From: Pseudocercospora fijiensis CIRAD86
Lineage: Eukaryota; Ascomycota; Dothideomycetes; Mycosphaerellales; Mycosphaerellaceae
Length of the DNA stretch: 64,000 bases
Assembly: GCF_000340215.1 (NCBI RefSeq)
Contig: NW_006921537.1
Span: 833,011-897,010, forward strand
Direction: 5' to 3'
The notes under the pieces are model-generated. The model was not told the DNA's origin, did not search any database, and was given only the letters and a program-made list of their open reading frames with translations. Shown piece by piece: positions 1 to 38,077 of this stretch. How positions within the stretch are numbered: position 1 is the stretch's first letter; each line of letters begins with the position of its first letter. The translations under genes and the position numbers were made by a program.

Positions 1-1217
1 AGGGAACGAAGCCTAAGTCAAGCGAGGATATTAGTACGGAGGTAGTGGATATAGAGCGTGGAGATATAGGTATCGATACGAAGGTTAAATATAGCGAGAG
101 AGGTAGTATCGCGGTATCGCTAGGTAATAGAGTAAGCGTCGCGCAAGCCTATATTATAGTAACGTTAGAGCAAGAAAAGAAGTTAGATACGGCTAAAAAA
201 GGCAGGTGCGGCAAACTTTGAAATATAGCCGGTATATATAGCCGGTATAGTAATAGGCAAAAGCCTCCTTTTAACAAACACTCGGCGTAATAATAGTATC
301 CTACTATAGTATAGATATTCTTTAGTAATTCCCTTACTAGCTACAGTAATCTTATAAATAACCTAGGCCTATTACTAGGAAATATGAGAAATGTTAGGTA
401 GGCTATACTAAACAAGCTAGTTATTTAGTAGGAAAAGGCCTACCACTATCTCTGTATGCCGGCTACGAGTGCCGGCTATCGCTCTAAATTTAACTCCGCC
501 CTATCTCGGAGGCTAAGGTACCGAGCGGAAACCCTATAGCTTATATTTAATCGGTTATCGCGGAGCGCTTATAGGTAAGGTATTAGAAAAGAGTATAAAA
601 AGTATAAGAAGAGTATCCTAGGATATAGGTCGTAAGTAAATAAGAGTCGCACGCCTAGTTATTTATATAGTACGTTACTCTATACGACCTAGAGCCTATA
701 TTATCTCGTACTTCGCTTATAAGACCTCGACTCTACTAGTATACTATCGATCTCTTAAATCTTCCTTAGTCGCTATCTTAATTCTTCTTCGAGTTGCCGG
801 ACTTAGTACGTATCTGTCGCTATATAATAGCGCTACGTATTATAGAGAATCTCTTATTAAAATTTCTCTCTCGTAGGCTTACTATCTGCCTCGTAGTATA
901 GAGGATTAAAGTGCTAATACTAAAGAATCTCTTTATAGTTAGTATATTAGGGCTCCTTAGGACCTTTGTATTTTAGGTCTAAATAGAGACGTATTATAAA
1001 CGTTCTATCGCCCTTTCGCTAACTATCTACTCGGTCGCGATATACGAAGAAACCAATTTAAATATAGCTCGTCTCTATAATAGCCGAGTAAATATAGGGC
1101 GCTAGGTTTCTACTTCGTACCTTATATCTAGGTATAACGCGGGAATAAAACTAGGAGTATAGCCGGTATATATAGCTAGTAAAAGGATGCGAAAATAGGC
1201 CTCCTCCTAGGTTAATC

Positions 1218-1720
1218 TAACGACTAAATACAAAGTCTAACTAATCCGCCACAAACCGACGCCGAATTTCAGCCAGAAGCTATATATCTTTATATTAAAG
1301 AGTACCCCGCTTCGTATAAATAGCAAGGAGGTTATAAAGCTTAAATTCGGTTATAAGAAATGCCTCCGTAGCTTCCTAAAGAGCATTAATCGCCTTAGCC
1401 GTAAATCGTATACTAGACTAAAAATCTAATATGATTTCTCGGACGAGTCGCTAGAAGAGAGTCTTAGGGATTAAAAACTCGGTCCCTCTTTTGTCTTGGA
1501 ATAGCCGGATCTAGCGAAGGGTAATAGTACCTAGTTTAAAGTACTACTTCTTTATTGTCGAGTCCTACCTTATACCCTTTTTTTAATAGAAGAATAACTT
1601 TTCTTTACGATAGTCTTCGTGTGCCTGCTCCTTTTAGCCTTCTCTTATCTATCTAAGGCCTTCTTGTTTTTTTAGTACTGTTTTCCGAGGAACCCCCTTC
1701 CCTTATATATACTACGGAGA
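1218..1720 (-). pseudogene. Decayed histone H3-like gene, left arm
   Basis: Read on the minus strand from about 1720 to 1218, the frame gives a basic tail followed by an unmistakable H3 core: GTITLR at the start of alphaN, then F-stop-RLVREI, AINAL-stop-EATEAFL, and YTKRGT followed by KDI-stop-LL. The three in-frame TAG codons sit exactly on the conserved glutamines of FQRLVREI, ALQEA and KDIQL of histone H3, as expected from CAG-to-TAG RIP. Loop 1 and the alpha2-alpha3 stretch have canonical H3 length; the alphaN-alpha1 segment is about two residues longer. The tail is K/R/S/T-rich but not the canonical H3 tail. The C-terminus appears to run on past the usual H3 end. A canonical genomic H3 is unlikely; a mobile or accessory H3 variant is the best reading. 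Confidence 0.8.
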
Positions 1721-2214
1721 GTCTTACTCTTCCGATATCTCGTTCTCGCTACGGTCTCCCTATACTTAGCTTGCTTTACCCTTGCCCTTTAGGCTCTAAA
1801 GGTATCTTTATATGCGCTTAGACGACGAAGGTATATCGCTAGAACCTAGAAAATTAATAAGCCTATAATCGTAAAGAGATATTCTATAACACTTCCTAGT
1901 AAGGATACGGACTATCCTAATTACGAATCTAACGATAACCGACTAGGACGGTTTAATAGAAGACTATTTAGTCTAGAGTATTAGAAGTATAAATATCTCT
2001 TTACATTTATAGGCTTATTAATTTTTCTAGGTCTTAGCGATATACCTTCGTCGCCCGAACGTATATAAAGATACCTTTAGAACTTAGAATAGAGTACGAG
2101 TAAAGTAAGCTAAGTATAGGAAGACCGTAGCGAGAACGAAATATCGGAAGAGGAATACTATATATAGTATATATAAGGGAAGGGGGCTACTCGGAAAACA
2201 GTACTACGAAATAA

Positions 2215-3365
2215 GAATACTTTAGGTAGATATAAGAAGGATAGAGTAGCTAAAAAGGTAGACAGACGAAGACTATTACGAAGAAAAGCTATTCTTCTAT
2301 AAAAAAGGGTAAAAGGTAGGTTTAGACGATAAAAAAGCGGCGCCTTAGACCGGATACTATTACCCTTCGCGAGATCCGGCTATTCTAAGATAAAAGGTAG
2401 ACCGAGCTTTTAATCTCTATAACTCCCTTCTAGCGACTCGTCTAAGTAATTATATTAGATTTTAAGTCTAGTATATAATTTACGGCTATAGCGATTAGTA
2501 ATCTCTCGAAAGCTACGAAGGTATCCGGGGTTTCGTTAGTTATACTTTATCCCGTAGTCGCGGGGATTTCAACTATATATAGAATCGCACTTTCTTAGTA
2601 GGCTATACGTAAACCTCGATATAATCGTATATTCTAGTCCTATTCGGATATCTAGGTAGGTATAGTAAGGAACCGCGAGTCTAAATATTATATATATAGC
2701 CTTATCCGAGTATATTATAGCTATAGACTTTACTACCGCCGTTTTCTTATATAATCCTTAGCAAGCTAGTCTACCTTATTCTAAGGCGCGTATTCTTCGT
2801 ATTCTTTCTTTCTAGTATACAAAGAGTATAGAAAACTCGGTATAGGGCGTAAAAAGGGCGAAAATATAAAGAGGGTACGTACTAAGCGGTTAACTAAGGT
2901 AGAGAGGGCGGAGAGGGTAGTAGATTACATAATAGATATATAGGCCGATATATAAAGTAATCGATTATATAGTAGACTAGAGTTTTGCTAAGAGGCCGGA
3001 TTAAGGTCCTTAGTCGCAATTTACTAGCTACTAATATAGCGGAAATCTACTGTTTCTCATCTCTTATCGCACTTATATCCAGTTTCCCATTATATTTACT
3101 CTATAATAGTGCTATCGTCGACTTTTACGTATAGCCTACTAAGAAAGTGCGACTTTACGTATAGTTCAAATCCCCGAACGTAGGCGAGGGGTAAAGTAGA
3201 CCAACGCAACCCTAGATATTTCTTATAACCGAGTTTAAGCTTTCTAACCTCCTTACTATCTATACGAAGCGGGTTGCTCTTTAATATAAAAATATATAGC
3301 TTCTAGCTAAGATTGGGCGTCGGTTTATAGCGGATTAATTAGGATTTGTATTTAGCCGCTACATT
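2215..3365 (+). pseudogene. Decayed histone H3-like gene, right arm, split by an insertion
   Basis: The inverted counterpart of the left-arm copy, read on the plus strand. Upstream of 2350 lies a lysine/arginine-rich tail ending in KKRRLRP, directly followed by DTITLREIRLFQ (compare H3 PGTVALREIRRYQ) and a TPF-stop-RLV stretch for PFQRLV. The frame reaches the start of the long alpha2 helix at about 2520, is broken by the 693-bp element at 2524-3216, and resumes at 3217 with ITEFKL, IYTKRVAL and a KNI-stop-LL motif to about 3365. Stops again fall at conserved glutamines. The gene is dead both from RIP and from the insertion. Confidence 0.78.
2524..3216. mobile_element. 693-bp TIR element with TA target duplication
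   Basis: Seen: this segment has no counterpart in the left arm of the palindrome, which defines its borders. It is bounded by TA on both sides (2522-2523 and 3217-3218). Its ends are inverted repeats of about 90 bp: the first ~90 bases (start TCCGGGGTTTCG) match the reverse complement of the last ~90 (start TCTAGGGTTGCG). A shared block near 2590-2620 and 3125-3150 includes TTTCTTAGTAGGCTATACG. TA duplication fits Tc1/mariner-type insertion. No transposase could be read in the ~500-bp interior, so it is a MITE-like, non-autonomous copy. Confidence 0.75.
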
Positions 3366-4639
3366 AACCTAGGACGAGGCACACTTTCGCATCCTTTTAC
3401 TAGCTATATATACCGGCTATACTCCTAGTTTTATTCCCGCGTTATACCTAGATATAAGGTACGAAGTAGAAACCTAGCGCCTTATGTTTACTCGATTATT
3501 ACGGAGACGAGCTATATTTAGACTAGTTTCTTGCCATATCCCGGCTTGCCTTAATAGTATTCGTAGTTTAACTATACTAAGAAGTAGAAGTATATATAAC
3601 TAAAGAAGGGGAGAGATCGTTATACGATCTAGGTATTATCGCTTACCGCTACTCGTATAGCTAGGATAACTAGGGAGGAGATCGATAGCACAAGTTAGTA
3701 GAGTCTAGCGACGACTCTACCTACGAGTCTAACGAAGAAGAACGTATAGCCCGTATAAGAGATTCTAAGATATATAGAAGCCTCGTCCTAAGATACTACC
3801 TCTACCTCCCTACTATACTTACCCGGTCGTATATAATATAGTCTTATAAGCGAAGTACGAGATAATATAGGCTCATAGTCGTTTAGAGTAACGTACTATA
3901 TAAATAACTAGGCGTACTACTATTATTTACTAACGACCTATATCCTAGGATGCTCTTCTCGTATATTTTATATACTTTTTTAATATCTTACTTATAAGCG
4001 CTCCGCGACAACCGAGCAGACATAAGGTACAGGGGTTCCACTCGGTACCTTAGCCTTCGAGATAGGGGGGAGTTAAATCTAGAGGCATAGTCGGCACTCG
4101 GAGCCGGTATATAGAGACGGTAGTAGGCCTATTCCTACTAAATAGCTAACTTATTTAGTATAGCCTACCGTAGTATAGATATTTATTATATTTCCTAGTA
4201 ATAGAGTTAGGTTACTTATAAGATTACTGTAGCTAGTACCTCTAGCCGGGTCTTTATACTAGATAGTTAGACTATATATAGTAGTATTATTACTATTAAA
4301 GTAGTAACTGCGGAAGATATCTAGGTAGAATTTCCTACTAAATTTTACTACCTCTTTTGGAACTATACTAATACTATTTTAGCTATTGTCCTTATAGCTA
4401 TCTACGTGAATCGCGTTACGACTATAGGTAAGGATTTTAAAGCCCTAGATTAGATTCTTAAGGGTTAGAATATCTAAATTCGAGATAGTAGTAGGTAGGA
4501 TAGATATTCTAGTAGGATAGATATTCTTAGTATCCTCTATAAGCGTTTCTATATACAAAATATGCCGCTATTATACGGCGCTATATAGCGCGCGATAAAT
4601 ACTCTCTAAGTATATATATAGTATATTATGCTTTATTAG

Positions 4640-5930
4640 ACGTCCGAAATAAAAGTCTTCGAAAATTCTATTAGTACTAGTCTTAAAAAGGGCTTGCTTT
4701 AAGTTACGTATATATTCCTATACTTGTTAGAAACCGACTAATTCTATAGTTCTAACCTGCTACTCGTATAGTTGCTTAGCAAACTAACTTAAACTAACCT
4801 AGAATTTTGGCTTAGTAAACTAAACCAAACTAACCCGACCTACTATAGGGTATAGCAATGCTAGTACGCTAACCTGCGATAGTATATAATACTATCTTGG
4901 GCCGACTATAGTAAACGTTTATAGTACTGCTTAGGGTTGCCTGGTTGGCGGTAGCTGAATATTTTGGTTATAGTAAAACGTGCTTCTCTAGATACTATCG
5001 ATATGCTACTCGTCTGCGCCGCGGACTATAGTAATAGCACGAGCCTTACTAGCGTCCTAGTCTAATATACTACAATTCGGAAATATAATATAGTCGGCGA
5101 CCTTAGTATTAGCTAGAATTAGATCGTATAGCAGGTATACAAACTAGTCTTCTAGATATATACGATCGAGTAGCAAATCCTTGTTGTTAAACTAACCTGT
5201 AAAATCGAAATAGGCACTAGTAGTAGTGCGATTGCTACCGACTTTAAAGTAGTAGATATAAGTACTATTACCCTTCCCGGCCTACTAGTATAGAAAGCCG
5301 ATTATCTCTAGGTTATAGCCTATACTGTCCTATTTAGTATAGGCGAGCGGGTAGGTAATACCTAGCTAAAGCACCTATATCTATACGATTAGCTATATAT
5401 CTAGCTTGCTACGTTAAAAGTATAGCATAGTATTAGAGCAATTCGATACTAGTTAGAAACATACCTCGCCGACCTTAGTATACTAAACTAAAAAAGCGGG
5501 TTACTAGTAGATCCGTAGACTATACCCGATAGAATAGCACTATTAGCCGGAAAGCGGGTAAGTAGCGTATTATCTCCCGAGTAATACGAGACCCGATACT
5601 AGGCTACGCTAGAGATTAAGATATAGTTTAATATTAGTTAGTCGGTATATAGGCCTATACGGTAGTATATATATAAAAATCAAAATAGGGTAGTATTAAA
5701 CTAGAGTACTACTACTTCTGTACGTTTGTGTGATTCAATATGTATAACGTATTCGATAGAACAGTATATAGGCCTTAGGGCATTATAAGATACGTACTAG
5801 CGCTAGTATATAGCTGACTTAAAAAGAATACCTAAACCTACTTTTTAAAGACTATACCTTTATTCCATTAACAGTAGGGGATAATAACGCCCTACTGCTA
5901 TAGCTAAAGACTAGAGAATAGGTATAGTAC
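4640..5930 (-). pseudogene. Decayed reading frame of unknown type
   Basis: With TAG/TAA read as glutamine, a long coherent minus-strand frame appears, including stretches such as VADYIIFPNCSILD and KARAITIVRGADE between about 5210 and 4990, and GEIC/FYLQ-like segments further upstream. I do not recognise a family. I looked for copia or gypsy integrase, reverse transcriptase and RNase H motifs and found none convincing. The flanking bases 4240-4640 and 5930-6560 are equally RIP-mutated and hold nothing I can identify. It may be another gene of the repeat that carries the H3-like copies, or a separate element. Confidence 0.3.
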
Positions 5931-6569
5931 TAGTAGTAGCATCTGTCCTATATAAAAAACCAGCCTACTAGTAACGCTATAGTATAATATCGATCGGTAT
6001 CTCTATGTCTTTTAGACTAAAACTAGCAGTTATAAAATTCTAGGTATCTATACTAAAAAGGACCTACCCGCTATATACTAGTTTTAATTATTTTGATCTA
6101 GGTAACTTTACTAATATAGCCCCTATTATTTCAAACTTTCTATACTAATTCGTCTAAACTGTAGCTTCTACTACCTATAAATCCTAGTATATATATAATT
6201 ATTGTTAGTTTCTAGCTGTTAGTACTTATTAGTACTAGTATAGCTTATATTATTCTTAGGATATAACCGCTAGCCTTTCGTTATCCCCCTTGTTTTTTAG
6301 TTAAGCTACCTTTGTTAGACTCTAGAAGCCTCGAAAGCAGTTACGATATTGTAAAGGGCGACCTATAGCTATAGCACGGCGCATATAGGAAGTCACGAGT
6401 GCGGAGAAGATTTGGCTGTAGTTAGATTTCAAGTCTAACTATAGCCGGGGCTTTTAACTAGTAGCTAGTTCTATGCTTATACACGTGCCTATATAGGCAA
6501 TGATTATCCTATGTTCATCCTATGCCCGTGCCTATACCTATATCTATACCCTCATCCTGTGAGGATAAC

Positions 6570-7908
6570 GACGTTGTAGTTCTTAGTATAGTTGCAGGTA
6601 TCGGCACTAAGGTTGCAGTCTGTTATAGGCGTTAGTATAGGCATTGCTATAGCTAAAGCTCTAGACTTACTCTTCTTAGCCTTCTTAGCCTAGCAACCTA
6701 GGCAAGGCACTATAGCCTCGGGGAACTCGGTACGGAACTCGCGGTTGGCCTTAATCAGATCAATCTGTATAGGCGTTAGTATAGGCAAAGGTATATACGT
6801 GACTATTTATACCTTGCCGTGCTTGCCGCGCCGGACGACGAAGGGCCTATTTAAGTCAGTATATAACTAGCGGCATAGGCATAGATCGGTATATACACCT
6901 CGCTATCACTCTCAGACTTAGACTTAGACTTAGTCTCTAAGTCTTCGATTGTCTCGGCAGATTTGGCCGGTGCTTTACCCTTAGCCTTGCCCTTACTCGG
7001 TGTACCTAGGGCGTCGGGGCTGTATGCGGATTAGTATAGGCAAAGGTAAGGGTAAAGATATAGCTATACTTAACCTCGTACAGATCCTAGGCATTGTCGA
7101 AGAAATCTAAGGGACACATTAGTAAAAAGCTTTGCCTATAGAGCTGCCTAAACCTACTAATGCACTTTTTTGTCTTAGTCTTAGGCGTATACCGACCACT
7201 ACGGTCCTTCTCCTTAGGCTGCTCGACTTTTCCCTTATACTATATGTACGTTAGTATAGGCAAAGCTCTAGGCAGGGAGCTACGCATACTATAGATAATG
7301 TGTATAGCGAGAGCCGAAGTGTCGCGGCAGATAGTCTATAAGGTGTTAGCTTTAGGCATATATATAGGCAAAGACAGAGTTATACACTATAGAAGCCCTT
7401 CTCTTCGTACAACTCCTTTAGTGTCTCTTCGTCTTCGTCTTTTCTATTATAGTATTAGCAATAACCAGTGATATAGGCATAACACTGCATATACCTATCG
7501 CGATTCTTCTAAGCAGCTAGGAAGCGACCGAAGTTCTTAGATCCTACCGGCATGCGACAAGTTACCTCACCTATATAGGTGCGTACGGCCTCCTAGTTGG
7601 TCTTTAGGCAGATCTATAGGCATTAGTTTAGCCTATTGCATAGGCAGAAGAGAGATTATATACCACGATTTCTATCTTAGGCATGTTGAATAACTCGCCC
7701 TATAAGAGGCGCTTCTTGTATTTACGGTAGGAGCTCTATATAGGCATAAGTATAGGCAGATATATACCCTAGTCTCTATACTTATAGATTGCTCTAGCAG
7801 GGTGTTGTTCTAGGCAACGGTCTTAATGTCTTACGGCATATTAGGAGGTATGTGCAGAGCTATAGGCTTGGGTATAGTAGTATAGGGGAACTCGGTTAGC
7901 TACGACAT
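6570..7908 (-). pseudogene. Decayed intron-rich gene, unknown function
   Basis: On the minus strand, starting near an ATG at 7908 (MSQLTEFPYTTIPK when one stop is read as Q), short exons alternate with about nine tiny introns. Clear introns are 7240-7289 (50 nt, GTATGCGT...CTAAC...ATAG) and 6765-6812 (48 nt, GTATAA...CTAAC...ACAG); others lie near 7736-7782, 7613-7663, 7440-7490, 7339-7391, 7124-7170, 7012-7068 and 6853-6904. Readable exon pieces include TYIGEVTCRMPVGSKNFGRF, DEDEETLKELYEEKGFYS, GTPSKGKAKGKAPAKSAE and IDLIKANREFRTEFPEA, ending near 6570. I do not recognise the family. The frame is less RIP-damaged than its neighbours. The exact exon borders are approximate. Confidence 0.5.
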
Positions 7909-8146
7909 CGAAGTCGCCTTATTAGCTCGTCGCGCATATATATAGGCATATACAAAGGAATAGGGGTAGGGGCTAGGGGTAGATACGTACTAGTAGTATA
8001 TTATAGAAAGAAAGGAAGAGAGTGTGCGCGCAAAGATGCGCGTATAGATATCGCGTAACGCTTAGCGTAATAGAAGATCCTAGCGTAATGAAACTTTCGC
8101 GTACGGGACGCACCCGCTTTAGCGTCTACGGATCCCTACATCGATA

Positions 8147-8155
8147 GTCAACTCC
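8147..8155. repeat. Left 9-bp target-site duplication of the MULE
   Basis: GTCAACTCC directly precedes the left terminal inverted repeat and is repeated exactly at 22573-22581 directly after the right one. A 9-bp duplication is typical of Mutator-like elements. Confidence 0.9.
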
Positions 8156-8200
8156 CCTCGCTACTTCCCCGAGCCCCAGCTACCCGCCCGAGCCCTAGTA
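8156..8200 (+). repeat. MULE left terminal inverted repeat
   Basis: 45 bp beginning CCTCGCTACTTCCCCGAG. It is the reverse complement of 22528-22572 apart from two C-to-T differences in CpA context, both in this copy. Confidence 0.9.
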
Positions 8201-8289
8201 ATACAGTGGATTATAGAATCCGCTATTCCTAACAAAATCGCGTAGGGAAGCGATTTCCGGATCCCCGCAACTACTACCGACCGGGCAAC

Positions 8290-10448
8290 TACTGCTGCTA
8301 GCTATAAAGCCAAAGTTTGTTAGCAAATCAGTAGTATAGCAAAATTCAAGGTGTTGTTAGTTGCTATCTACTCAGGTCCAAGCGGGTTACGACCTGCAGC
8401 CTTGTAACTACGCGAGGCTATATATGCTAGCTTATACTAGTCTCTAGCCTACTAGCTAGCCTGTTGCTGCATATAATACTGCTACTAAGTGAACTAATAG
8501 TACTGCTACTAAGTGAACTGATAGTACTATTGCTGCAGCACCTAGTAATGAAGTGGCCGTCCTATTAGCTATATAAGTAACTATTATTGTTGTTGTTACT
8601 AGTGTTGCTAAGCAGCCTGTCGTTGCTGCTGTTCAAATAACGCCGCCTGCTATCGGCTATATTCAATCTGTTATTGAGTGCGCTGTTCTTTACGCGCTCG
8701 AAGGTTATTAAGCTCTTGCCGTAGAAGGTCTAGCTTAGAAGGAGGTTGTAGTTGTAGTTCAACCGGAAGTAATAGCTCTTAACGTAGATTATAGCACTCG
8801 AAGCTAGAAGGGTAGCAGGTAGAGCTATATAGTCGATTAGCCTTCTAGCAAGGACACTGTTGAGTACGGCATTAGCTCTTTACGCACTTACAGTGCTTAA
8901 TAGTCGTCCGCAACTAAGTAAGCGACACGCTAGGCTCGAGTACGAAGGCCGCTATTCTTAGTATTGTTGTCTTCTGCTTCTTAGCGACTGCTGTCTTATT
9001 TAAGTCGTCTAATTCTCGAACCGTTGCTACACGTTTTGTTGTATATAACGTCGCTCCGCTAGTAAGAGGTTTGCGGTTGCTATAGATTACCTATAGCTCT
9101 CGAATACGGTACGAGTCAAAGAGCCGTACCTTCTTAAAGTCGACAAACTAGTAAGCGTAGAAGTGAGAAGGCAATAGCACTGTACGGCTGCCCTCTGTCT
9201 CTAGAAGCTTTATAATATCGTAAAGGTACGGATAGCTATAGGTCTTAGATAGGTGGTCGTTGCAGCGGCACTATAGACAAGAACACGAGTATGCCGAGTG
9301 CTTAATCTCGTTGCTATCAGCATTAACTGTAGCCTTTAAAAGCGAGTTAGCACGCGAGTATAGAGCCTGTACTTCGAGAAGGCAATAGTCGCTAATAACT
9401 CGAGTTACAGAAGACTAGAATGGACCGATTAAGGCCTTAGAATAGCGCTTTAGGTTGTTAGCGAGTACAGCTCGGCGGCGGTCGTAGCCTTAGTGCTACT
9501 AGTTAAGAAGCGACTCGAAGAGGGTAAAGATATCGTACCGACTGCTATAGTTTAACTACTCCTTAATCCGACCGTAGGTTGCCTCGACTCGTAACGTTGT
9601 TTTATAGCTAAAGTGCATTACTTAGTTAGTCTAGCAGTAGACAATCTTCTCCTTATAATACTACTAGTTATTGTTCAAATAGGACTTGAACTGTAGAAAC
9701 ACGTTATCTAGCTTATAAGCCTTGTCGTTGAATTCTTCCTCGGACTGACTCTAGACTATATAAGTAAACAGCTTTATAAACTGAGTAGTCCTTAGACTAT
9801 CAGTCTACGAGCTATCGTTAGCCTTTACCTATACAAAGTCGCCTCGTTCTTTGCGTACTCGAGTTAATATGTCTTATTGTAGGTGCTAGTCGTAGACGAT
9901 ATTCTTAGACTCTAGATACACCTCGTTAATCGCTGATATAAGAGCCGCTTTACGGTCAGTGCTAAAGACAATAGGTAGTAGATAACTATACTTCTCGAAG
10001 CCATTCCGGATTGACTACAATAGCTATATAAAGGCCGCCTTATTAGGCTTCGGTTTGACAAGGCTAACACCGAGTTCAATCGTGTTATTTATCGGTCTAG
10101 CGGCGACAATATCCAGCAACTCGAGGTTATATAAATTGGTGCTGTAAGTCGTATCTAAACAGATAATATGTAGCGTGTCCTTATAGGCAGAGAGCGACCG
10201 TAGATAGAGGGCAACCATTAACCGAATTGCACCATTCTTAGGATTAGTTGTTATCTCGTAGAAGATTGAATTCTCGTCTAGTAGCTTAACTATTCTCTCG
10301 GCCTAGTTTAACTCTCTTCGAGCGACAGTATTGCGGTTGAAAGCAATATTATAGACGTCGTGTAGCTTCAGAATGACTCCCTAGCCTCGGAAATAGGCTA
10401 CAAGGGTATCGTTAGAGGCTAGAAGGCCTTACTTAGTCTAGCGAAGCG
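8290..10448 (-). pseudogene. MULE transposase, catalytic and SWIM half (decayed)
   Basis: Read on the minus strand with TAG as Q, the frame begins with a helix-turn-helix-like segment (LRQTKQGLLASNDTL, ~10440-10390) leading to DVYNIAFNRN. The MULE domain follows: IICLDTTYSTNLYNLELLDI (~10170-10110) carries the first catalytic Asp, and FSTDRKAALISAINEVY with YDWHLQ (~9950-9870) carries the second. A SWIM zinc-finger pattern CSCxxCRCxxH lies near 9300-9255. The C-terminus is Q/N-rich and fades by about 8290. It is the downstream part of one gene whose 5' half lies at 21450-22334; the 11-kb insertion separates them. RIP stops make it a pseudogene. Confidence 0.85.
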
Positions 10449-10481
10449 GCGAGTGCGAAAGAACAGTCTAGACTCTACGAG
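10449..10481 (+). repeat. Terminal inverted repeat of the nested element, 3' side
   Basis: 33 bp starting GCGAGTGCGAAAGAACAGT, matching the reverse complement of 21418-21449 with one indel and two mismatches. It marks the junction with the catalytic half of the MULE gene. Confidence 0.75.
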
Positions 10482-10486
10482 CTAAG

Positions 10487-10620
10487 AACTCATGCTAAGT
10501 AAGCTTGTTAGAAGCAAGCTATTGGTACCCTCTATACAACTCATGCTAAAGGGGCTTGTTAAAAGCAAGCCGTTGGTACCCTCTATGCAACTTATGCTAA
10601 AAGGGCTTATCAATAAGCGT
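10487..10620. repeat. 51-bp tandem repeat, about 2.6 copies
   Basis: Units start near 10488, 10540 and 10591, each with ACTCATGCTAA, a GCTTGTTARAAGCAAGC inverted repeat and GGTACCCTCTATRCAA. They lie between the terminal repeat and the hairpin of the nested element, so they form part of its 3' terminal region. The small internal palindrome could form a stem in each unit. Confidence 0.75.
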
Positions 10621-10648
10621 TGAACTATCTGCATATTCGCTAAGAGCG

Positions 10649-10686
10649 ATCGCGACCGTAAGCGGCAAGCCGCTTACAATCGCGAT
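10649..10686. repeat. Hairpin with 18-bp stems near the Helitron-like 3' end
   Basis: Stems 10649-10666 and 10669-10686 pair around an AA loop. The two mismatches are adjacent CC/TT differences of RIP type, so the original stem was probably perfect. Helitrons carry a GC-rich hairpin shortly before the 3' terminus, and this lies just beyond the C-terminal end of the Rep-helicase frame, on the expected side. No CTRR follows it within 15 bases on the minus strand. Confidence 0.7.
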
Positions 10687-10829
10687 TTATGCTTATAGCT
10701 CTATAGCAGCTGGCTTAAGTGAATATTAAGGGAGCTATAGTTCAGATGCTGTAACGTCGGAATTGCGCTACTTCTCGTCCCTAGTTTGTAACTACTAAAG
10801 GCCCTTAATTATGCTGCTATTCTACAAAT

Positions 10830-13800
10830 TATTCAACTCTCATCTATAGCATCGTCTTCTTCCGCATCATTACCCTCAATTTGATTATTATCACCCTCTA
10901 GCTAATTATCGTTACCTATTATCGCTAGCTATTCGCGAGTCTCTTATTTAGTACGCTGTCTAGCTAGTTGATCTGCTTCGTAAATTTAACGAAGAGTCTT
11001 AGCATTAACCTCTTTATCCTATATCTGTATATCTTTATGCTGCTAATCTTCTATTACGTCTTCTTAGGTCTTCTATATGCCTTCTACTATATCCGTGCTA
11101 TTAAGGAGACCTTCCTATTGCTGCTACTATAGCTAATTGCGAGCTGCAGCGGCGAAGAACTCAGCATTAGTTATAATATATCTACGCTAACCTTAAGCAG
11201 GTGCGGGCAAATGCTCGAGACGAAGCCGTATAACTATACGCCGCGACGGGCGTATATGATTAGTGCGGGAGAGAACAGGCCAAAGAGCATCAAAAGCGTC
11301 GTTAACGTCGCCGCTAATATAGGCAACCTTAAAGACATTAGCAAAGCTGAATATAAGATTAGACTCTCGTATAGTCTCGCCCGGGCGGATAAGACTAAGG
11401 ATGTTGCGCTTAATGAATTATACATCGGCGAGTAGTATGTCGATAGAAGACTCTAGGTCGGGATCTACGACCGGAGGGATAGTGTCCTAGGCAGTAGTCG
11501 GCTCGGCATACTAATTGTTCTATATATTAACTAAAGCTTCGCTAAGCAACATGCTTACGGTATAGTGCTTAGGTAGCTTTAGGTCGGTATGCTTGTTAAC
11601 GATGTAAAGCTGAATAGACCTAGCGCGGCGAGCCTGCTATGCAGATGCTACATTAGCAAGGCTACGTCGTAGAGCAATCGACTTAGTATATACCTCTCGT
11701 TGCTTGAGTGCTTCAACCTAAGCAATAGCTGCCGCAGTCTCGCGCTACTCTCGGATGCTGTCCTATTTAGCCTAACGTAACCGCTGCTCTTCTAAGAGAC
11801 GTTGTCGCTCCTTATGCTGTTAACGTATTTCATTAAGACGGCGCTAATTAATTGTAGCTACCTAGTCGGGTAGAGCGGGTATAGAAGAGAGGATGTGTCC
11901 GATAGGAATCATACGCTAAGGGCGACGCCGAATGTAGTCTATATAGCGGGCGACTACGCTGTTATAAACCTTGCCTTTGAAGCGATTGTAGAAGGTAAAA
12001 GTCTCCTCAAACATTACATCGTCGGGCGAGCGAACCCGCGATACGGCAACGTATACAAGGCTAGGCGTAAAGTCCTTCTTCGAGATATCTATAACTACTA
12101 TCGGGAGTATTATACCCTGAGATTTATAGACTATAATAGCATATACGATCGTGAGCGGAAATTAGCGTCTAGAGTATCGTACGCCCTAACTCTGCTACTA
12201 CTCTCGCTTTATAGGAACGATAGGCACGACATTCCCTAGTAAGCCGAGTACGCTATCTAGGTCGAATTCTTAGTTTAGTAATAGTCCCGTATAGCCTTCG
12301 ACCTCGACGAGAAAAGTAAGAGGAAGTGTGTTCTTAATGTGCCTAGCCTAAGTAGCAGGATCGTCGACATCCCCCTCCTATAGCTGCATTAGAGACTAAA
12401 CAATGTCTTTTATAGTACCTAGGCTGCCGTTAACGAGTCCGCCTTAAACCTAGAGATTCTACGTAACTATAACACGAGCGCTAACACATATAGGGAGCTT
12501 AGCATAAAGGGCACTACCTGCCTTATATAATGCTTTATAGGCGTCCTTTCTAATATGCTCTACGTTGAGGACTACGATCGGATTCTTATACGACTTTATC
12601 TTCTAGTAATTGTACTAATTGACCTGCTTCTTATAGGCGTAAAGGCGAATCGCATCCTTGAATCGCTCCTTCTTACGACGAGAGAGGTTGGATTCAGTTC
12701 GATCGACTAAAGTCTACTAATACTCGACACGCATGCCTCTAGGTGCGGTTCGAAGGCCTTAGAGTGCTTCCTTAAAAGCTAATAAGCGAGCATCAGTACC
12801 TTGCTATCGCTGAATTTGAGACAGCTAAATAGTCTTATCGAACTAATGCTAAAGAGATCGACTGAGAGTAGTTTCTAGGGTCTCTCGCGGTATTAGCTTG
12901 CCGAATAGTAGCTTTCCTCTAATTAGTAGCAGCTAGTGGAAGTCGCCGTACAAGATGATCGTTCTACCGCTAAAGGGCTTGTCTTTATCGACAGGGCTAG
13001 TCTAACGGAGGCGCTAGTCGATCCAGTACAGCGTAGTAAGATCCATTATTAACTTCTCGTCGATAACAATATACGTAAACGTGTATATTGCTTCTTAAAA
13101 GTCAGTAAGTGCTTAACCATCTAGAGGAACATACGTTTGTATATTCAGTAGGAGTTTGAAGGCCTAATAGAGCGTAGTTCCATTAATACTATTAGTAGCA
13201 GCACTAGTAGGCGCAACTCGCAGGATTGGGTTGCTAACGTTAAGCGGGTCTTGTTAACTATCGGCAATTTGTTGCTAGAGGTATTAAGTAGACAGCCGCT
13301 CTAGTTCCGATAATAGGAGGTTAATAACAAAAGACTTCCCGACACCTGCCTACCTATCGATATTGAGAAGCATTAGCGCTAGCATACCTTCCCTAAAGAG
13401 CACTAAATAGTAATGATTGTATATAGTGTCGAACTATAAACGCTGCTCCGGTACTAAGGCGTGAATTAGCTGCTAAGCATTAGGCTTAATCCTAACACGC
13501 TAATCGGTGCCTATAGTACCTCGCTTAGTCTTTTAATAGTCTGCTAGTACCGCATTAGCCGAGAGAGAGTACTTGCTAATGTACTGTATCTAATCGTACT
13601 CTACGTCGACCTCTCGCTGCCTAAGATTAGCTAGAGAGGCATCGGTCTTAGCAGGAGCACGGTTAGGCAGCGCAGCAGCTAGTAGCTCGCCTTTAGGTTG
13701 CTCAACTTTAGGGTTATATACTTCGTCTTAGAACAGATCAGGTAATAGTACTAGAAGGTTAACGCCTATATAGTCGCGGGGATAATAATGATTCGGATAA

Positions 13801-16800
13801 TCCAGGCAGTATTAGTAGGCCTCTAACCACTTATTAAATTGCTAGCGGTTTGGATCATTATCAAATGTATATAGCAATATAGGATACTGCCTACTGAATT
13901 CGTAATAGAGGACGATCTTGTTCCGACACTAGTCTTCGTAAGTGCTATCCTAGCCATTAGGGATAGCACTATACTTTAGATACTAATTCATTACCCGTAG
14001 CTTCGCTCGTAGACGCTTCTTTATCTTATTCTCGTCCCACTTAGTTACGAATTAGAACAGAGTAAGTCTAGGATTGTTAGGAAGGTTAGTAGTGTCCTAG
14101 TTGCGGTCGAAGCGAGTAATGTATTTCTACAATAGCGACTTGCCGTATAGAACGATTTCGTCTTGTACCCGATCGTATCGACGAACACGCGGTTAGTTAT
14201 TAGGAAGTCGACAATCGAAGCCTTATACCTTACGGCTACCCTAAGCAAGAGGCAGCTTAAGAAGGAGATGCATCTCCTCCTACGTAGAAATATCTCGCTC
14301 ACCGATAAGCTTGTTTAACATCTTAGCTACGAATTGTACTATTAGGCGATTGGAGGTAACCTTTAGCGCTACCTTTCGGCCAATTTCGAGAAGGCTCTCG
14401 CTGCGCTTCTCCTACTTTGTATAGTACTTGCTAAGGTAGTTGATTATAGTGCCTTTATCGGTATAGACTGCTATATCGTTATTAGCAAGCTATGCTATCT
14501 AAACAGTACGATTGTAGTTGTTTATACGATTATCGTTTCGAGCGCTATTAAACATATAGTGCCGCGGATTGTAGTCTTTCGTAACATATGCAGCCTAGTA
14601 GATAGCTCGCGGGAAATGGAACCGACAGCTACGAGTATTGGTTATATTGTTCATCCGATTGCAGTACTTATACCTACACGTATACCGCTATACACGGTTG
14701 AGATTCAACATAAGCTAGTGTTAGCTGTTCTATAACCGATCGTATAGCATTTAAAGGATGTTTAGCTTACTAGGCTGAATGCCAGTTCGTCTAGGCTAAG
14801 GGTTGTTAGCAGAGATATAACGACCCTAGAACTTAGCAAGGCGCTAACGTTGGCTCTCGGTGTCGGACATAACAGGAGGCGGAAGCTTCTAAGAGATATT
14901 GTTCCCGTCGTTATCCTGTACTTTAACATTATGCTACTAAAGCTAAACAATACTATAGTTGTAAGATAAGCCTCGCGACTGGAACTCAAAGCGGTTCTAG
15001 AAGTCTTCTACTCCGAATTTCTTCCTAAGCAGGTCTATAATGAAAGTATAGCGCCTATAGAAGTGGTATGCCGCTATAGCTGGATTCTCTCGTACGTTGT
15101 CCCGACTAATCTTAAGGCGCTGAAACTCGTTGCCCTCGGGCATAACCGGCATATAGCGCTAAAGGCTAGGCTAATAATTATCGGCAGCACTATAGGTTAA
15201 GAATAGCTAAGGAGTACCGATCGCTTTAACGTAATTCTCTAATTCATTAGTCTTACCGATCTAGAAGGCTCGAGTACTACGTAGAGAGTTACTACTACGC
15301 GTAATTATTAAGAGAAGCTTGCGAGATTGCTCGTTATTAGACGTAAGGGCAGCTCGTATGTCGTCTACGGCAATCTCCTCGTATTCCGGATTCTGCTAAA
15401 CAATGTAGTCCGCTTTTAATATAGTCTAACGTCTTAGTAGAGTGTTTAGAGCGACATGTCTCTATCGAGCGTGTTATGCAAATCGAGCACTAGATAGGTA
15501 TAGACTAGTGCTATCATCCCATTTCAGCATATACTCAAGGTAGTCGTTATATCCGAGACCGCGCTAACGGGCATTAGTATAGTCTGCCTTGCCCTAAGGA
15601 TAGCATGTCGGAAATGCACCTGCTAGTAAGCGATGCTTATTGTTGAACTCACTTAATAGCACAGAGTTAAATTCTAGCAGATTAAGCTACGTTTGTTCGT
15701 CTCTAGAGGCGTCGAGCTAAGCTTGTCGCATTCGACGCTCCGCTTCTACTCGTTGCCGCTACTCGGTCTATTTACTAATAATAGCCTAGATAGCATCTCG
15801 CTAGTTCTATAGCATATACGCCTAAGGTAAAGCTAATTCTACGGGATAGTCTGCGAAAGTCTATTCTTCCTCCGTAGTACTAGGCTTAGCATTACTATGT
15901 TGCGTATAAGCCTAAGATTGTACAAGACCGGCTTGTCTAGCAGCTTCTTAAGAGACTAACGGCGGGCCTTCATCTTCTTCGTAGGTCTCGATGTGCATAA
16001 AGTCTATAACAGATTCACCGTCCTAGCTATCCGGAAGCTATAATATACGTTGCTTATCCTATTCGATATCTATATACTTAGGATTGTTGTCCTTAAGGTG
16101 CTTCAACTAAGTACGTACTACCTACTGTCGTACTTTGAAGTCTCGGACAAAGATTCTCTTTATAACCTCATCCGACTAAGCTAGACGTAGGACTACAGTC
16201 TCTAGGTGTTAAGGCAGAAGAGGTAGCTGCTTCTAAACCTTTGCTGTGTCTCGTAGAAAGTTGATAACGTTGTTCTTGTACCGCTACTATGCGCCCTTAA
16301 TTAACCGCATTTCTACGTATATATAGTGCTTAGCAATAAGCAGCTCTTCGACTATAGTGAGTTAAGGCAACCATTCGCTAGTCTCCGGATTAGTTAGCTA
16401 TAGTCTAGGATCTATACAGTTCTTATCGGACATCAAATCGGGCGATCTAATAGGCTTAGTATTGTCGCGAGTGGCTCGACAACGATAACAGATCTTATAG
16501 GTTAGGGACTTAGGATTGTTGTCTAAATCTATATTAAACTAACGCTCCTTGTAGCCTCTACTATCGCCGTTGTTAAGCTCTAGATTCTAGCAGTACTCTA
16601 TCTTCTTATTATCTAAGTCTTCGTAAAACTCCTTAACCAAACGGTAGTTAAGCTTATCTAGAGCAGGCGAGTCGTTAAGGTTAGAAGGATCGCCTAAAGC
16701 AGGGTCCTAGCTATAGAGAAAGTGCTTAATGCGATCGGAGTCTTGAGTAGTCTGCTTAGTACGCTCAGTAGGACCAGCACGTGCCTAACGTTGTCGTGGA

Positions 16801-18430
16801 ATATCAGGACGTAGCGGTGGCTTAATGTAATGTAGGAGGCAGCAGAACTTAAACTCGCGGCGAACCTCGTCGTCTCCTTTAGGTGCGAGAAATTAGAACC
16901 GCTCCTCTTCGTGCTTGCCTATCTAACACTACTTCATTATAGCTATATCATCAAGCTTATAACCTTCTATATAGTAGTAGTAGAAGTTGGGCTGCTCGTA
17001 TAAGCGAGAGATCTTACGCGGAATAAGACAAATCTCGTAGTAGAAGAACTCGCGTATATCTAGGCGACTATTATTAGGAGGACCGATTAGTGCGAAACCG
17101 AACTCTTAAGATGGCAGAGGTGCGTTACTGCTATAGTTATCGCTTAGGAGCTGTTCGATAGTAGGCATAGGCTGTATAGCCTTACTAGCGCGAGTAGCGA
17201 CACGATTAGCGCGCTCGATCTACGTCTATATACGACGGGCAGCTACAGTCGCCGCATCGTCGCTACTGTGCTAACTACGAGCACGTACATCTCTAGGGTT
17301 ACCTAATAAGGATGTTAGCGGAGCTTGCGAAGGACGTAGCGGCGGCGGCGTTAAAGATTGAAATGTATCTAGCTAAGGAGGCATCTTCTTAATAGGATCT
17401 CTAGTACGCTAAAGAGCGACATTAATGTTGCTACTAGCAGATAATAGTGGGTTTAGAACAGTAGGACCAAGCGACAATGTAGGAGCCGGAGACGACTAAA
17501 TAATAATTAGCGATCGTACGGGAGCAGGTATCGACACTGCTTTTATAGGTCGACTACGCTTCGTTAGCGTAGGCTAAGGCTAAGAAGTAGTATCATCCAG
17601 CTTGCGCTTCTTTAAGGAAGAAGCCTTAGCCTTACGAGCACGATACTTGTCGCATATCTTAAGTGTCTTAGTCGGATACTTCGGGTTTATAAAGCACGCG
17701 ATAGGCTTACGCTTACTACAGTTAGGGTTAGTGCAGACCTAAGTATCGCTATCGTAGTCGCTGCCAACTTCGCTCAGATTATTATCCTCTTCTTCTTTAG
17801 GATTAGGGCGGTTAGTAGGCAAGTTCTTCTTCGGCGGTCCGCTAGGTAGATTACCTCCTAGCGCTCTAGCCGCTGCTTGTCCGTACCAATAACTAAATTG
17901 CTAACCGACCTGCGCTATGTATGTATACATAGGGGTATTCTACTAGATAATAGCCTAAATCTCTGCTATTAGGTTGATATAGCGACGGTTCTCGCTAGCG
18001 TATAGAGCTAGTTCGAGGTCCTTTATAATCCGGTATTTGAGTCGTATAAGATGTACATACTTAGCCGTGTCGAAGGCGTTCTTTCTATGCTCGTAGTCGT
18101 AGGCGCTATGCGTCGAATCTTCTTCTATCGCATCTTCAAGTTGCAGCTCGAGGTCGCGGATAGTAGGCTTAATCTTCTTCGTAAACATTCGCTCGAGTCG
18201 GCGGCCGGTGCTACGGCAGGGCGTGCGACGATAGACCTAAGCCTAGTCCTAGAAGGTATAGGGCTCGATCGTAGCTAGGCTCTTATAGGTAGAAGGTACG
18301 GCAAGAGTATAGGAGGTGCTCGAGGCATCGCAAATCGCGAGCTTCGATTGCACCGCTATAATGCTGCTGTCTCTTAGTTGGTCGTATAGGTTGCTAAGTA
18401 TTTAGTGTTCGGATTAACTAGAATGTGTGT
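10830..18430 (-). pseudogene. Helitron-type Rep-helicase (HUH Rep + PIF1), decayed
   Basis: A minus-strand frame of roughly 2500 codons stays coherent from about 18430 to 10830 if TAG/TAA are read as Q/W. N-terminus: a helical region (18188-17955), then a Cys motif (CTNPNCSKR, ~17740). A region like the DUF6570-type domain (EELLIAKH, VINFL) lies at ~16450-16000. The Helitron_like_N part includes LENYVKAIGTP and FLTYSAADN (~15250-15190) and the HUH site at ~14985-14950, which now reads YNY where HxH is expected. The Rep tyrosine motif YLSKYYTK is at ~14445-14420. The PIF1 helicase has Walker A AGVGKS (~13350-13330), IDEK (~13068), LYGDFHQL, YKSQG (~12120) and AVSRVRS (~12048-12020). A coiled-coil tail ends in an acidic stretch. 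Such proteins drive rolling-circle transposition. Dead by RIP. Confidence 0.85.
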
Positions 18431-18654
18431 ATTTGTGTATGTAGGTAGGTATATTAAGGTTCCGCGGCAAGACACGAAGAGAAGTGGAAGTCGTAAAGGA
18501 GGCGTCTATTTATAGTGCCGCTTAGTTAGAAGCCTACGCCCGAATAGGAATAGAGTGCGGCTTCTTATATGTAACAGAATTCACTAGTACGGACCTTTGT
18601 CTTTATTTACAATGTATGTGTCAACTACTGTCTCTACTAACCTACCTTTAGAAG

Positions 18655-18815
18655 CGCTAGCGCTTAGAGGGAGGGGGGATAGTCGTTCCTCTTAAACCCC
18701 CTATTCCCTTACCGCGCGGAGTGCTCCTTCTTTAACGTTAGTACTTAGAGGGAGGGGGGATAGTCGTTCCTCCTAAACCCCCCGTTCCCTTACCGTACGG
18801 AATGTCCCTATCGTA
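18655..18815. repeat. Two diverged tandem units related to the 86-bp array
   Basis: Two units of about 81 bp (starts near 18660 and 18742) share GATAGTCGTTCCTC and a GGGGGG...CCCCC inverted pair with the array at 19921-20320. The rest of 18430-19920 is RIP-mutated sequence upstream of the Rep-helicase frame with no gene that I can recognise. Confidence 0.7.
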
Positions 18816-19920
18816 TCGATACCTACAATACTCGATGCCTAAGGTCTCCTCGTTATCGTATTAAGCACTTTTGTTAGCGTTGTTTTTATAGAAATGTGCC
18901 TAATCGACTTAACTCGTTCGATTAACGTTAACATTAAAGAACCTAGGTGTTGAGACATATTAGCCTACTAACTTATTAGAAGTCTTAATGTTGCTTCTAG
19001 TACGTAGATTGAACGCTCAATCTGTAGCATTGTCTAAACCTTACCTCGCTACCTACCTACGTGCCTTTTACGCTTCTAACTGCGCTACTACAACGCTAGT
19101 AACGATAATGCTATATTAGTATATAAGAATTGCAGCCCTACGTCCAATCACAATACGAGCGCGTTCTTGTCTACTATAATAGGCGAACGTAAGGAGTATT
19201 TACAGCTCTACTCCCGCTTTGAGTGATATAACCCCCGAGTTCTTCCGCATTGTTTACTTATAAATTAGAGCAAGCCTTTAATAATTGCATACAGACTACT
19301 CGGTCTTCTAAACTAAGCTAGGGTACAGCATTGTCGTAATTTTCAGCAGGTTTCTCAAACCGCCGTAAGACGCGCTATCCGGGTTCTTAGTTACCCTCTA
19401 AACTAACTATATAGGGAATTGTCGGTACTATATTGTCGAGCTTCTTCGGAAGTCTTATTAGGTTAGGCAGCCTTTAAGTGTCAGGTTTAGCAGCCTTCGA
19501 TTGTCTAAAAAACGCAGTTCGTCTAGTTTCTATAGGTTAAGGCGATTATAAGTCGAGTAGTAAGGTTCGCCTTACTTAAAGGGTTAATGCTTAGGAATCG
19601 TATTTGTCCGCAGTGTAGGCCCCGCGTAGCTTCCGCTCTATAGTTTTGCTCTAGTAATGTTCTTCACATTCTTTTTGAACTCGGTTAGTGCTATATACGC
19701 TAGCAACATCTTTTGCTAGGCAGCGGCATCGGTGGAGGGTGCGACGTGAAAAGCAGGATGCGGTAGCGTGCTATTACGGCGGAATACTAAACGGTACGGA
19801 TTGCTCGGCTCGTTATCGTGTTAATCACTTTTGTTAGCGTGCTTTTGCTAGAAATGCGCTTAATCGATTCAATTCTACTATCTACTATAAGCGCTAGTAG
19901 TACCTACAAACCTCTCTAAC

Positions 19921-20320
19921 GTTGCCGCTTAGAGGCTAGGGGGATAGTCGTTCCTCCTAAACCCCCTATAGCCTTACCGCTTTAGTATCTACATTCTTTT
20001 GCTAACGTTGCCGCTTAGAGGCTAGGGGGATAGTCGTTCCTCCTAAACCCCCTATAGCCTTACCGCTTTAGTATCTATATCCTTTTGCTAACGTTGCCGC
20101 TTAGAGGCTAGGGGGATAGTCGTTCCTCCTAAACCCCCTATAGCCTTACCGCTTTAGTATCTACATCCTTTTGCTAACGTTGCCGCTTAGAGGCTAGGGG
20201 GATAGTCGTTCCTCCTAAACCCTCTATAGCCTTACCGCTTTAGTATCTACATCCTTTTACTAACGTTGCCGCTTAGGGTAGGGGGATAGTCGTTCCTCCT
20301 AAACCCCTATACCTACCGCG
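19921..20320. repeat. 86-bp tandem array, five units
   Basis: Units begin at 19921, 20007, 20093, 20179 and 20265, an exact 86-bp period; the last is shortened. Each unit begins GTTGCCGCTTAGAGG and holds AGGGGGATAGTCGTTCCTCC followed by TAAACCCCCT, so the G-run and C-run can pair into a hairpin. The array lies 5' of the Rep-helicase gene inside the nested element. The units are more alike than expected for independent decay. A GC-rich cluster (20340-20400, GCGGAAGGCGG / GCGGACGGCGG) follows it. Confidence 0.9.
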
Positions 20321-20489
20321 CGGAGTACTCCTTTTTGTATTAGTCCTCCGGATAGGCTCCTACGCGGAAGGCGGTCCTACGCGGACGGCGGTTGCTCCCT
20401 ACGGGAGGGCAGGTGTTGTATAGTACTATTGTCCTTCTATAGCGCTCTTGCTCTTACTCTTACTAGAGGCATCGAAGCATCGGAGTTAG

Positions 20490-21250
20490 AGGGGCAGAGA
20501 CTAGTCTCTTTATCCGGATGTTTAGGTCTAGTTATGTCGGTCTAATTGTTTAGGTCTAGTAACGCTAGAGTGCGTATTAAGAAGCCGATATCGTTCGTAG
20601 AGGGTTTAAGGTAGCTCGGCGAATAGTGGATGTATATACTATTATCGTCTAAGATCTAGGCGGCACGGCTCTCTAGCTATAGTCTGCCTATCTTCTAATC
20701 CTATACGCGCTTCTATAGTCGAGAACGAAGGTCGATAGTAGGTGCGTTGTCGACAGCCTAAGCACTTGTCTTGCTTATACCGAATTAATAGTATCGCATA
20801 TCTATAATCTTGCTCCCGTCGTACCCGCGGATTAGCTGCGACTATATAGAAGTTAATATGTCGAGTCCTAATAGCTCTTAAATTACAGACTATAAGTATT
20901 CTTTAGATAACATTGCTTAGAGCCAGTTTCCCTAGATCCTAACATTTTTACTTATCGTTAGCATCGATGTATCTTATATAAGACCCGTAAGTCGGAGATG
21001 CCGAGACGCCTTCGAAATTCGTCCTAATCTTAGCTACGAAGTGGTTTCGTACAAAGAACAATAGAGATTCTTGCTCTAAGGGAGGTCGTACGTCTACGCG
21101 TCGTATATACGGCGTTAGATAGTTAGAATAGTACTCGTAGTTCGGTAGTCTGCGAAAGTCGCGTTCGTAATTAAGGGCAGGGTCGTTACTGTTATAGAAG
21201 TAGTTGTTGTAGAAGTAGTTGTTATTATAAAAGTCGGTAGGTATAGGTAA
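20490..21250 (-). pseudogene. Second decayed gene of the nested element, unknown
   Basis: On the minus strand a coherent piece runs from about 21250 to 20950 (NDPALNYERDFRRLPNYEYY, then PPLEQESLLFFVRNHFVAKI, ending near RYIDAND). A second coherent piece in another frame runs from ~20940 to 20490 (KIIDMRYYQFGISKTSAQAV, YIHYSPSYLKPSTNDIGFLI). A small intron at about 20950 or an indel would join them. I do not recognise the protein. It sits upstream of the Rep-helicase, inside the same element, so it may be an accessory or captured gene. Confidence 0.4.
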
Positions 21251-21417
21251 AGTAAGCGGCCTAAGGCTTTATATACGTAATAACTTCTTGAATTTTGACT
21301 AATAAGAAGCGCTCCTAGACTTTGTATAGCGTCGTATCTTCCTTACTAACCCCCTTCCGCTGCTTACCTAACACACACATAACGCTATGTAATACACAAT
21401 ACAGTATACAGGTTAGA

Positions 21418-21449
21418 CTCGGAGAGTCTAACTGTTCTTTCGCACTCGC
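21418..21449 (-). repeat. Terminal inverted repeat of the nested element, 5' side
   Basis: 32 bp, the inverted partner of 10449-10481. It abuts the end of the DNA-binding half of the MULE transposase gene at about 21450. Confidence 0.75.
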
Positions 21450-22334
21450 TTCTAGAAATTTAGACGTATAGCTACGCATTCTCGTCGCAAGCTCCTCGAA
21501 TGCTCCGCCTCCCGCCTAAATTTCTTCTAGCTTCGCTAGAATAATCTTCGAGGTTAGCATTCGTAACTGCTATAATCGCTCTAGTTGCTTAAGGAATTGC
21601 TAAGACCTCGTACGGACACGCACATTAGTTAATAAGACAACGTCGTTAGGTCTATAGTTATACTAGCAATGTATATCTTTAGAAGAGTAGCGAATACACT
21701 ACTTACTATCCGGCGTGCGAGGGTCGATAGCAATAGCGTAGAAATAGAATTTACAGCTAATCTTCTTTGTCTTCTTCTTCGCCTTATTAGTCGTTGTCTA
21801 GGTACGTTTATTAGGCTCACTAAAGCAGCCGTAGACGTAGAGATAGCGGTATTTGATACCATCCTTATTCTTCTTAGGTTTCTACTCTTTGAACTCGAAT
21901 CTAGTGTCTACACTAAACGACTAAATATAGCGTACGAGCGCATTCTTCGAAGGAAACGACGACTAGCGAGGCAATAGCCTACGAGGGCGCTTAATCGTTA
22001 TAAACTCGTGCTTTTAAGGTCGCGGCGATACTGATCGATATTCTAGCAGATTAACACGCTCGCGCGGCAGCGATAGCGACAGTAAGCGCGAGCGGCCTCG
22101 AATACGTATCTCCGAGACAAATTGAACCTCTTCCTACGACTTAACAACCACCGCCGAGAGCGCGCCTTCTATACCTTCTACCTCTATTTCTACCTCCTTC
22201 TGCGACTCAACAACTACCGCCGAGAGCGCGCCTTCTACACCTTCTACTACCGCCGCCGCCGCCGCCGCCGCGCCGTTACCGCCGCCGGCGATAACTTTAT
22301 CGAGAAACTCGTCGTAGGATAGAGATTCAGCCAT
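21450..22334 (-). pseudogene. MULE transposase, FAR1-type DNA-binding half (decayed)
   Basis: Starts with MAESLSYDEFLDKVIAGG at 22334. A poly-alanine run and two repeats of a VEGALSAVVV unit follow. A FAR1/WRKY-GCM1-like zinc domain lies at about 21905-21660: KPKKNKDGIKYRYLYVYGC, then KKISCKFYF and CIRYSSKDIHC, ending in YNY where the family has HNH. That fits RIP of two histidine codons (CAC/CAT to TAC/TAT). A helical stretch rich in Leu/Gln ends at KFLE at the junction. In the family this domain binds the transposon ends and precedes the catalytic domain, which here lies 11 kb away at 10448. Several in-frame TAG/TAA codons inactivate it. Confidence 0.8.
22132..22285. repeat. Duplicated 66-bp unit and GCC microsatellite in the MULE gene
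   Basis: The plus strand has two copies of a unit (near 22140 and 22208) containing CCGCCGAGAGCGCGCCTTCT, followed by a run of CCG/GCC trinucleotides (22244-22275) that encodes poly-Ala on the minus strand. Confidence 0.8.
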
Positions 22335-22527
22335 TTTCGGTAGTTACTAGGTAATCTGCTGCAAAAGGGGGAAGAAATGCGAACTTTAGGTCTACGGTGG
22401 AATTCGAGGCGCGAATTCGAGGCGCGACCTCCGCGCCTGTTAACAACACTATCCAAGAACGGATATAATATATAATAGGTGGAAACAGCACGTAATCTAA
22501 TTCAGGACGATTCTACATTGGTATATC

Positions 22528-22572
22528 TACTGGGGCTCGGGCGGGTAGCTGGGGCTCGGGGAAGTGGCGAGG
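22528..22572 (-). repeat. MULE right terminal inverted repeat
   Basis: 45 bp ending GAAGTGGCGAGG. It keeps the two CpA (TpG) sites lost in the left copy and so is closer to the original sequence. Confidence 0.9.
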
Positions 22573-22581: not shown

Positions 22582-22651
22582 GCGTTTAGCGTGGTCAAGC
22601 GCACTTGTCTCACGCGTGAAGCGTCAGCATCCTTGTCCGCGCTGCGGAACC

Positions 22652-37755: not shown

Positions 37756-38077
37756 TGAATTTTATCATGAACACTACTACACTACACTACGTCTGGAGGA
37801 AAGAAGATCGAGAAGTGTGTTGTTGAATTGAGATTTCCATTCCTTACGATAAGAGCGTGCTGTATACCAAAACAATAACAAAACAAAAATCCTAGTAGGA
37901 TGGATGACAAAACGAAAATGGTATCGCAAAACAAAGCAAAGCAAAGCAATTAAAACCCCAGCCCCAATTCAGATTCGCGCACAGCCAAAGGATAAATAAA
38001 GCATTCCCGACCGAGAAATTTCTGAAGCATCATCCATACCCCCTCCCCCCCCCCTTCCTCACCACCCAGCCATCCTC
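37756..38077. other. Convergent 3' intergenic region
   Basis: 322 bp between two converging genes. It contains AT-rich runs (37860-37950) likely to serve as polyadenylation regions and a cytosine run at 38041-38057. No gene seen. Confidence 0.5.

Follow-up and report, generated by a model that had tools for sequence, protein, structure and literature searches.

Two unlike, RIP-mutated copies of a histone H3-bearing hAT element, very probably joined head to head, in Pseudocercospora fijiensis

An inverted repeat with an H3-like frame in each arm

The window, by which we mean the whole 64,000-nucleotide stretch of DNA analyzed, corresponds to C6:833011-897010 of the 73.9-Mb, 30-contig assembly of Pseudocercospora fijiensis CIRAD86. 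An earlier note, made from the sequence alone, described an inverted repeat of ~3.9 kb at 335..4238, and we recover it as eight arm pairs of 47–329 nt that are 81–90% complementary; seven of them link the two arms within 335–4238 and one (2561–2619/3118–3176) lies inside a nested insert. The note had also suggested looking for conserved element ends beyond this interval, and the paired stretch is wider, about 21–4854, with an outer TIR on the right. Alignment to the full-length element described below places hAT sequence at 21–1883 (minus strand) and 1911–4854 (plus strand). Window base 1 is directly preceded by N only, so the repeat begins beside an assembly gap. In the following list H3-hAT is the hAT element that carries H3-like genes, H3-A and H3-B are its two H3 genes, and a composite is the head-to-head pair of arms.

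21..1883, minus strand: left arm, derived from the right half of one H3-hAT copy (1865 aligned columns, 89.8% to the full-length copy)
1265..1573, minus strand: left-arm H3-A frame, interrupted by in-frame stops (Pfam Histone 61.1 bits, E 1.6e-16)
1884..1910, no strand: arm junction, where neither arm aligns to the element
1911..4854, plus strand: right arm, an older H3-hAT copy represented by its right half and ending in a TIR (from the alignment and the TIR)
2272..2517, plus strand: 5' part of the H3-A frame of the right arm (Pfam Histone 24.3 bits, below the cut-off of 26.4 bits; E 4e-05)
2524..3216, no strand: insert of about 693 bp, nested in the right arm, with inverted ends and TA on each side (ends read in the sequence)
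4318..4691, plus strand: H3-B remnant, the 3' part and downstream sequence (78.8% to the full-length copy)
4835..4854, minus strand: outer TIR of the right arm, which matches the TIR in the full-length copy apart from some changes
4855..8155, no strand: flank common to the composite copies and part of a larger repeat unit (two copies followed to 8155)
22591..22613, plus strand: end of the larger repeat unit (14 genome places, at most two mismatches)

The left arm covers element positions from about 7515 to 5662 and is truncated by the edge of the window and the gap ahead of it. The right arm contains the nested insert and two internal deletions and aligns in four blocks (1911–2524, 3218–4238, 4318–4691, and 4675–4855); its H3-A frame picks up again past the insert, at about 3219–3340. 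The insert, which we take to be a Tc1/mariner-like MITE, has 45 genome matches, 11 of which are full length at 96–100%, and all 11 lie in composites.

Most of what the earlier note read in the arms holds. Each contains an H3-like frame read outward, the left on the minus strand and the right on the plus strand (scored with stops as X). The stops of the left arm do fall on three H3 glutamines (F*RLVREI, AL*EA, and KDI*L), and the right copy, for which a KKRRLRP motif had been noted, reads KKRRLRPDTITLREIRLF*. The attribution to RIP is likewise supported: within 1–4000, CA and TG occur at 0.19 and 0.17 of expectation, the repeat is depleted in CpA/TpG and enriched in TpA as a RIP target should be, and strong RIP marks extend from the window start to about 22.6 kb. 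The ratio (CA+TG)/(AC+GT) is 0.26 and 0.16 in the two arms and 0.31 in the full-length copy, as compared with 1.36 at the host H3 locus. The arms have been damaged by more than RIP, given that the tail region changes reading frame in both.

The full-length element and its published counterpart

Both arms align within the right half of an element of 9.5 kb, a full-length copy of which occupies C4:2992717-3002247 (9531 bp). This copy has the short TIR (19/20 bases) and the 8-bp TSD (8/8, GTTACGAG on either side) of a hAT element and holds two H3 genes, H3-A at 5899–6282 and H3-B at about 7640–8230. Pfam scans of stretches of this one RIPped copy revealed no transposase domain, and no homologue was found for the frame upstream of H3-A. 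Whole-genome searches located 21 DUF659 and 47 hAT-dimer places, for which no tie to the element was established; none of the DUF659 places matched when compared by eye with the 150 scored H3 places. Phage and plasmid collections gave no match. Our hAT label relies on the TIR, the TSD, and the published description of the element (PMC6710886).

A transposon carrying histone H3 is spread over hundreds of sites in this genome. A search with PF00125 returned 772 candidates, and 148 of the 150 that were scored carry in-frame stops; the stop-free ones are the host H3 on C6 and a CENP-A-like exon at C5:606604. Of 30 loci fetched from among the 150, 28 align to the repeat, which is more than chance would give. 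Three loci (L042, L049, and L055) form a second subfamily, B, that is 73% alike to the common subfamily, A, over the H3-A frame and about 79% alike in the DNA upstream of it.

The element is almost certainly the one that Dhillon et al. (2019; PMC6710886) described in P. fijiensis. That paper counts 784 H3-like copies, carried by 471 hAT elements of about 9.5 kb with a 20-bp TIR and an 8-bp TSD, and places the original H3 on scaffold 6; size, TIR, TSD, two H3-like genes (the second with a 16-residue insertion), RIP stops, and a host H3 on scaffold or contig 6 are the same here. The two accounts differ in that a hAT transposase domain, which our Pfam scans did not find, is reported there in 277 of the 471 elements, more than the DUF659 and hAT-dimer places located here. 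A mobile element that spreads an H3 variant, which the earlier note took to be new, had thus already been described, both in P. fijiensis and by Manning et al. (2013; PMC3538342), whose H3L-hAT elements of Pyrenophora tritici-repentis likewise carry an H3-like gene between the TIRs of a hAT; these occur in 5.6- and 2.3-kb forms, are mostly intact, and have ESTs. PMC6710886 states that the hAT elements of the two fungi share no sequence similarity. Our data bear out, base by base, a striking published example in which a transposon amplified a housekeeping gene and RIP destroyed the copies. They extend it with three testable additions absent from as much of the text of PMC6710886 as we consulted: an apparent intron in H3-B, protein-level constraint on H3-A, and a repeat containing an Argonaute next to the composites.

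The two histone genes: divergence, a probable intron, and constraint

The stop-free core positions of the full-length copy agree with host H3 at 46 of 76 for H3-A and 53 of 74 for H3-B, and the two genes agree with each other at 42 of 73. Membership of the H3 fold is supported by profile comparison, in which one copy (L048) scores 98 bits against solved H3 chains. As the earlier note had inferred from the arms, H3-A is no simple copy of the core histone: it has a different basic tail plus an extension in place of the ARTKQTARKS tail, and two residues are added to its alphaN-alpha1 link. The N-terminal extension is retained in both subfamilies. H3-A is thus the strongly diverged gene, with an N-terminal extension, and H3-B is nearer host H3 and apparently contains an intron.

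A divergent H3-family core is shared by H3-A and CENP-A (CenH3), and many CENP-A proteins occur among the distant matches. However, H3-A does not have the longer loop 1 of CENP-A and, among solved structures, matches H3 and H3.3 chains best, on which grounds we rule out an identity with CENP-A. One search for relatives of H3-A gave 13 proteins among 97 candidates. Of 7990 candidates scored in a profile search, 364 proteins reached E ≤ 1e-8, and the top match among the best 120 of these 364 is a double H3 of a chytrid. No intact hAT-borne relative of H3-A was recognized among the 19 sequences (13 plus 6) inspected, the other relatives being known from table rows alone, which cannot reveal a hAT-borne H3.

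All seven aligned copies of H3-B (six composites plus the full-length copy) have a stretch interrupting the codons that precede T-V-A-L-R; it opens with GTAAGT, contains TTACTAAT shortly before its end, and closes with TTTAG. Omitting this stretch restores the host reading, and its site lies three bases from host intron 2. We infer from these signals that the stretch is a spliced intron. Such an intron matters for the route by which H3 was captured: PMC6710886 concludes that a transcript or retrocopy was taken up, whereas an intron in H3-B argues against a transcript origin of this gene. No such stretch interrupts H3-A at the same site, in agreement with that paper.

Constraint was examined using only those differences that RIP could not have produced, permuted 3000 times within codon position and base. 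The differences between H3-A and host H3 are far more conservative than permuted ones in subfamily A (25 copies; BLOSUM 300 vs. 217 ± 14) and in subfamily B (3 copies; 321 vs. 234 ± 15), and in neither was any of the 3000 permutations as conservative. The same permutation applied to the single full-length copy gave 0/3000 for H3-A and for H3-B alike. This pattern indicates that H3-A diverged from host H3 under protein-level constraint, with selection acting in a host gene or in the element.

Selection in the element would mean that, before RIP, the transposon put H3-A to use as an H3 variant, perhaps in packaging its DNA or blunting silencing. The permutation results are in keeping with such a use, as are the retention of the H3-A frame and its extension in two subfamilies, the net indels between subfamilies, which are multiples of three inside the frame and mostly not in the flanks, and the ESTs that exist for the H3-like gene of the P. 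tritici-repentis elements (PMC3538342). However, selection may predate capture and have acted in a host gene. The comparison of subfamilies A and B, which addresses the time after capture, is not significant overall (P 0.20 with codon position kept, 0.04 with free permutation); its 10 core transversions comprise 4 synonymous and 6 nonsynonymous changes, and stop counts in H3-A give no support (P 0.77 and 0.36). There were few indel events, and of the three in-frame changes, two arise by adding up neighboring gaps in pairwise alignments. We consider use by the transposon unlikely and favor the reading that H3 is cargo, which matches the conclusion of PMC6710886. Equally doubtful in our estimation is the broader idea that this hAT lineage owned its histones, in the sense that H3-A with its own tail functioned until RIP and that, together with the Argonaute described below, two silencing-related genes became mobile. 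Recruitment of H3 by transposons for their own use would be a new kind of counter-silencing, and the present data fall short of it.

Origin of the head-to-head pair and its place in a larger repeat

The earlier note offered two accounts of the inverted repeat, a repeat element with an H3 variant as cargo or a single H3 gene copied head to head and then silenced. The first stands insofar as an element carries a RIPped H3 variant; the second is contradicted by transversions. Arm against arm, these number 156 in 1560 sites (10.0%), and given that RIP does not make transversions, the arms are two hAT copies of different age. Against a copy of the common subfamily there are 34 in 1595 sites (2.1%) for the left arm and 175 in 1642 (10.7%) for the right, which marks the right arm as the older copy. 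We are thus confident that the feature consists of two unlike, RIP-killed copies of the published H3-hAT, set head to head. The words palindrom and head-to-head are absent from the main text of PMC6710886 by term search.

We find the composite at 11 sites, distributed over six contigs, inside a larger repeat and with RIP marks in common. Nine of the composites are 97.7–99.8% alike over 3.9 kb, from which it would follow that the composite multiplied after RIP. Its 8-bp flanks differ from each other and thus form no TSD, and movement of the composite as one hAT unit is rejected. We posit that the element would have spread through hAT transposition, that RIP would then have mutated the copies, that two insertions of opposite orientation may have met with loss of their left halves, and that the composite would later have been copied as a passenger.

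The break points of the two arms are 81 bp apart in the element, which two independent insertions do not explain and which would suit a true palindrome made from one copy through fold-back or template switching at a break. The 10.0% of transversions between the arms lead us to reject this origin, as do the sites at which an arm departs from subfamily A while B is unchanged (81 in the right arm alone, 8 in the left arm alone, and 5 in both), and we regard it as very improbable. Still less credible is that the arms are an assembly artefact at the gap, a concern raised in the earlier note and by the N directly ahead of window base 1, since 1.9 kb separate the junction from the gap and the centre recurs at 11 sites on six contigs.

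On one side of the composite, the larger unit has an end that occurs at 14 places. Among these 14 unit ends, eight lie 5.07–5.10 kb from the centre insert of a composite, two share a contig with a composite at distances of 22.7 and 43.4 kb, and three are remote from every composite. The window's own unit end is 19.5 kb from the centre insert because a nested 14.4-kb insert displaces it. This RIPped insert (8156–22572) has inverted ends of about 32 bp (31/32 alike), is bordered by GTCAACTCC on either side, and is presumably Mutator-like, judged by its target size. At 22591–22613 and the 13 other places, CA and TG are kept amid RIPped surroundings. A Pfam scan of 4855–8155 returned nothing at E ≤ 0.1.

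On the side opposite the unit end, 8 of the 11 composites are adjoined by a RIPped Argonaute (Piwi 52.2 bits, ArgoL1 35.8 bits); as to the other three, the window copy stops at the gap, the long arm of L034 is truncated, and one was not read for Argonaute. A literature search confined to listings found no report of Argonaute-bearing repeats in this fungus. A RIPped Argonaute with Piwi and ArgoL1 lies by the long arm of L033 (L074, C7:1077400-1079400). The 201 bases adjoining the Argonaute have 44 matches from 68 candidates, indicating an Argonaute-bearing repeat family, and 58 of the 64 Piwi places in the genome have in-frame stops. Elsewhere in the window, 38000–57000 has a long, strongly negative AT skew that reaches -0.345 per kb.
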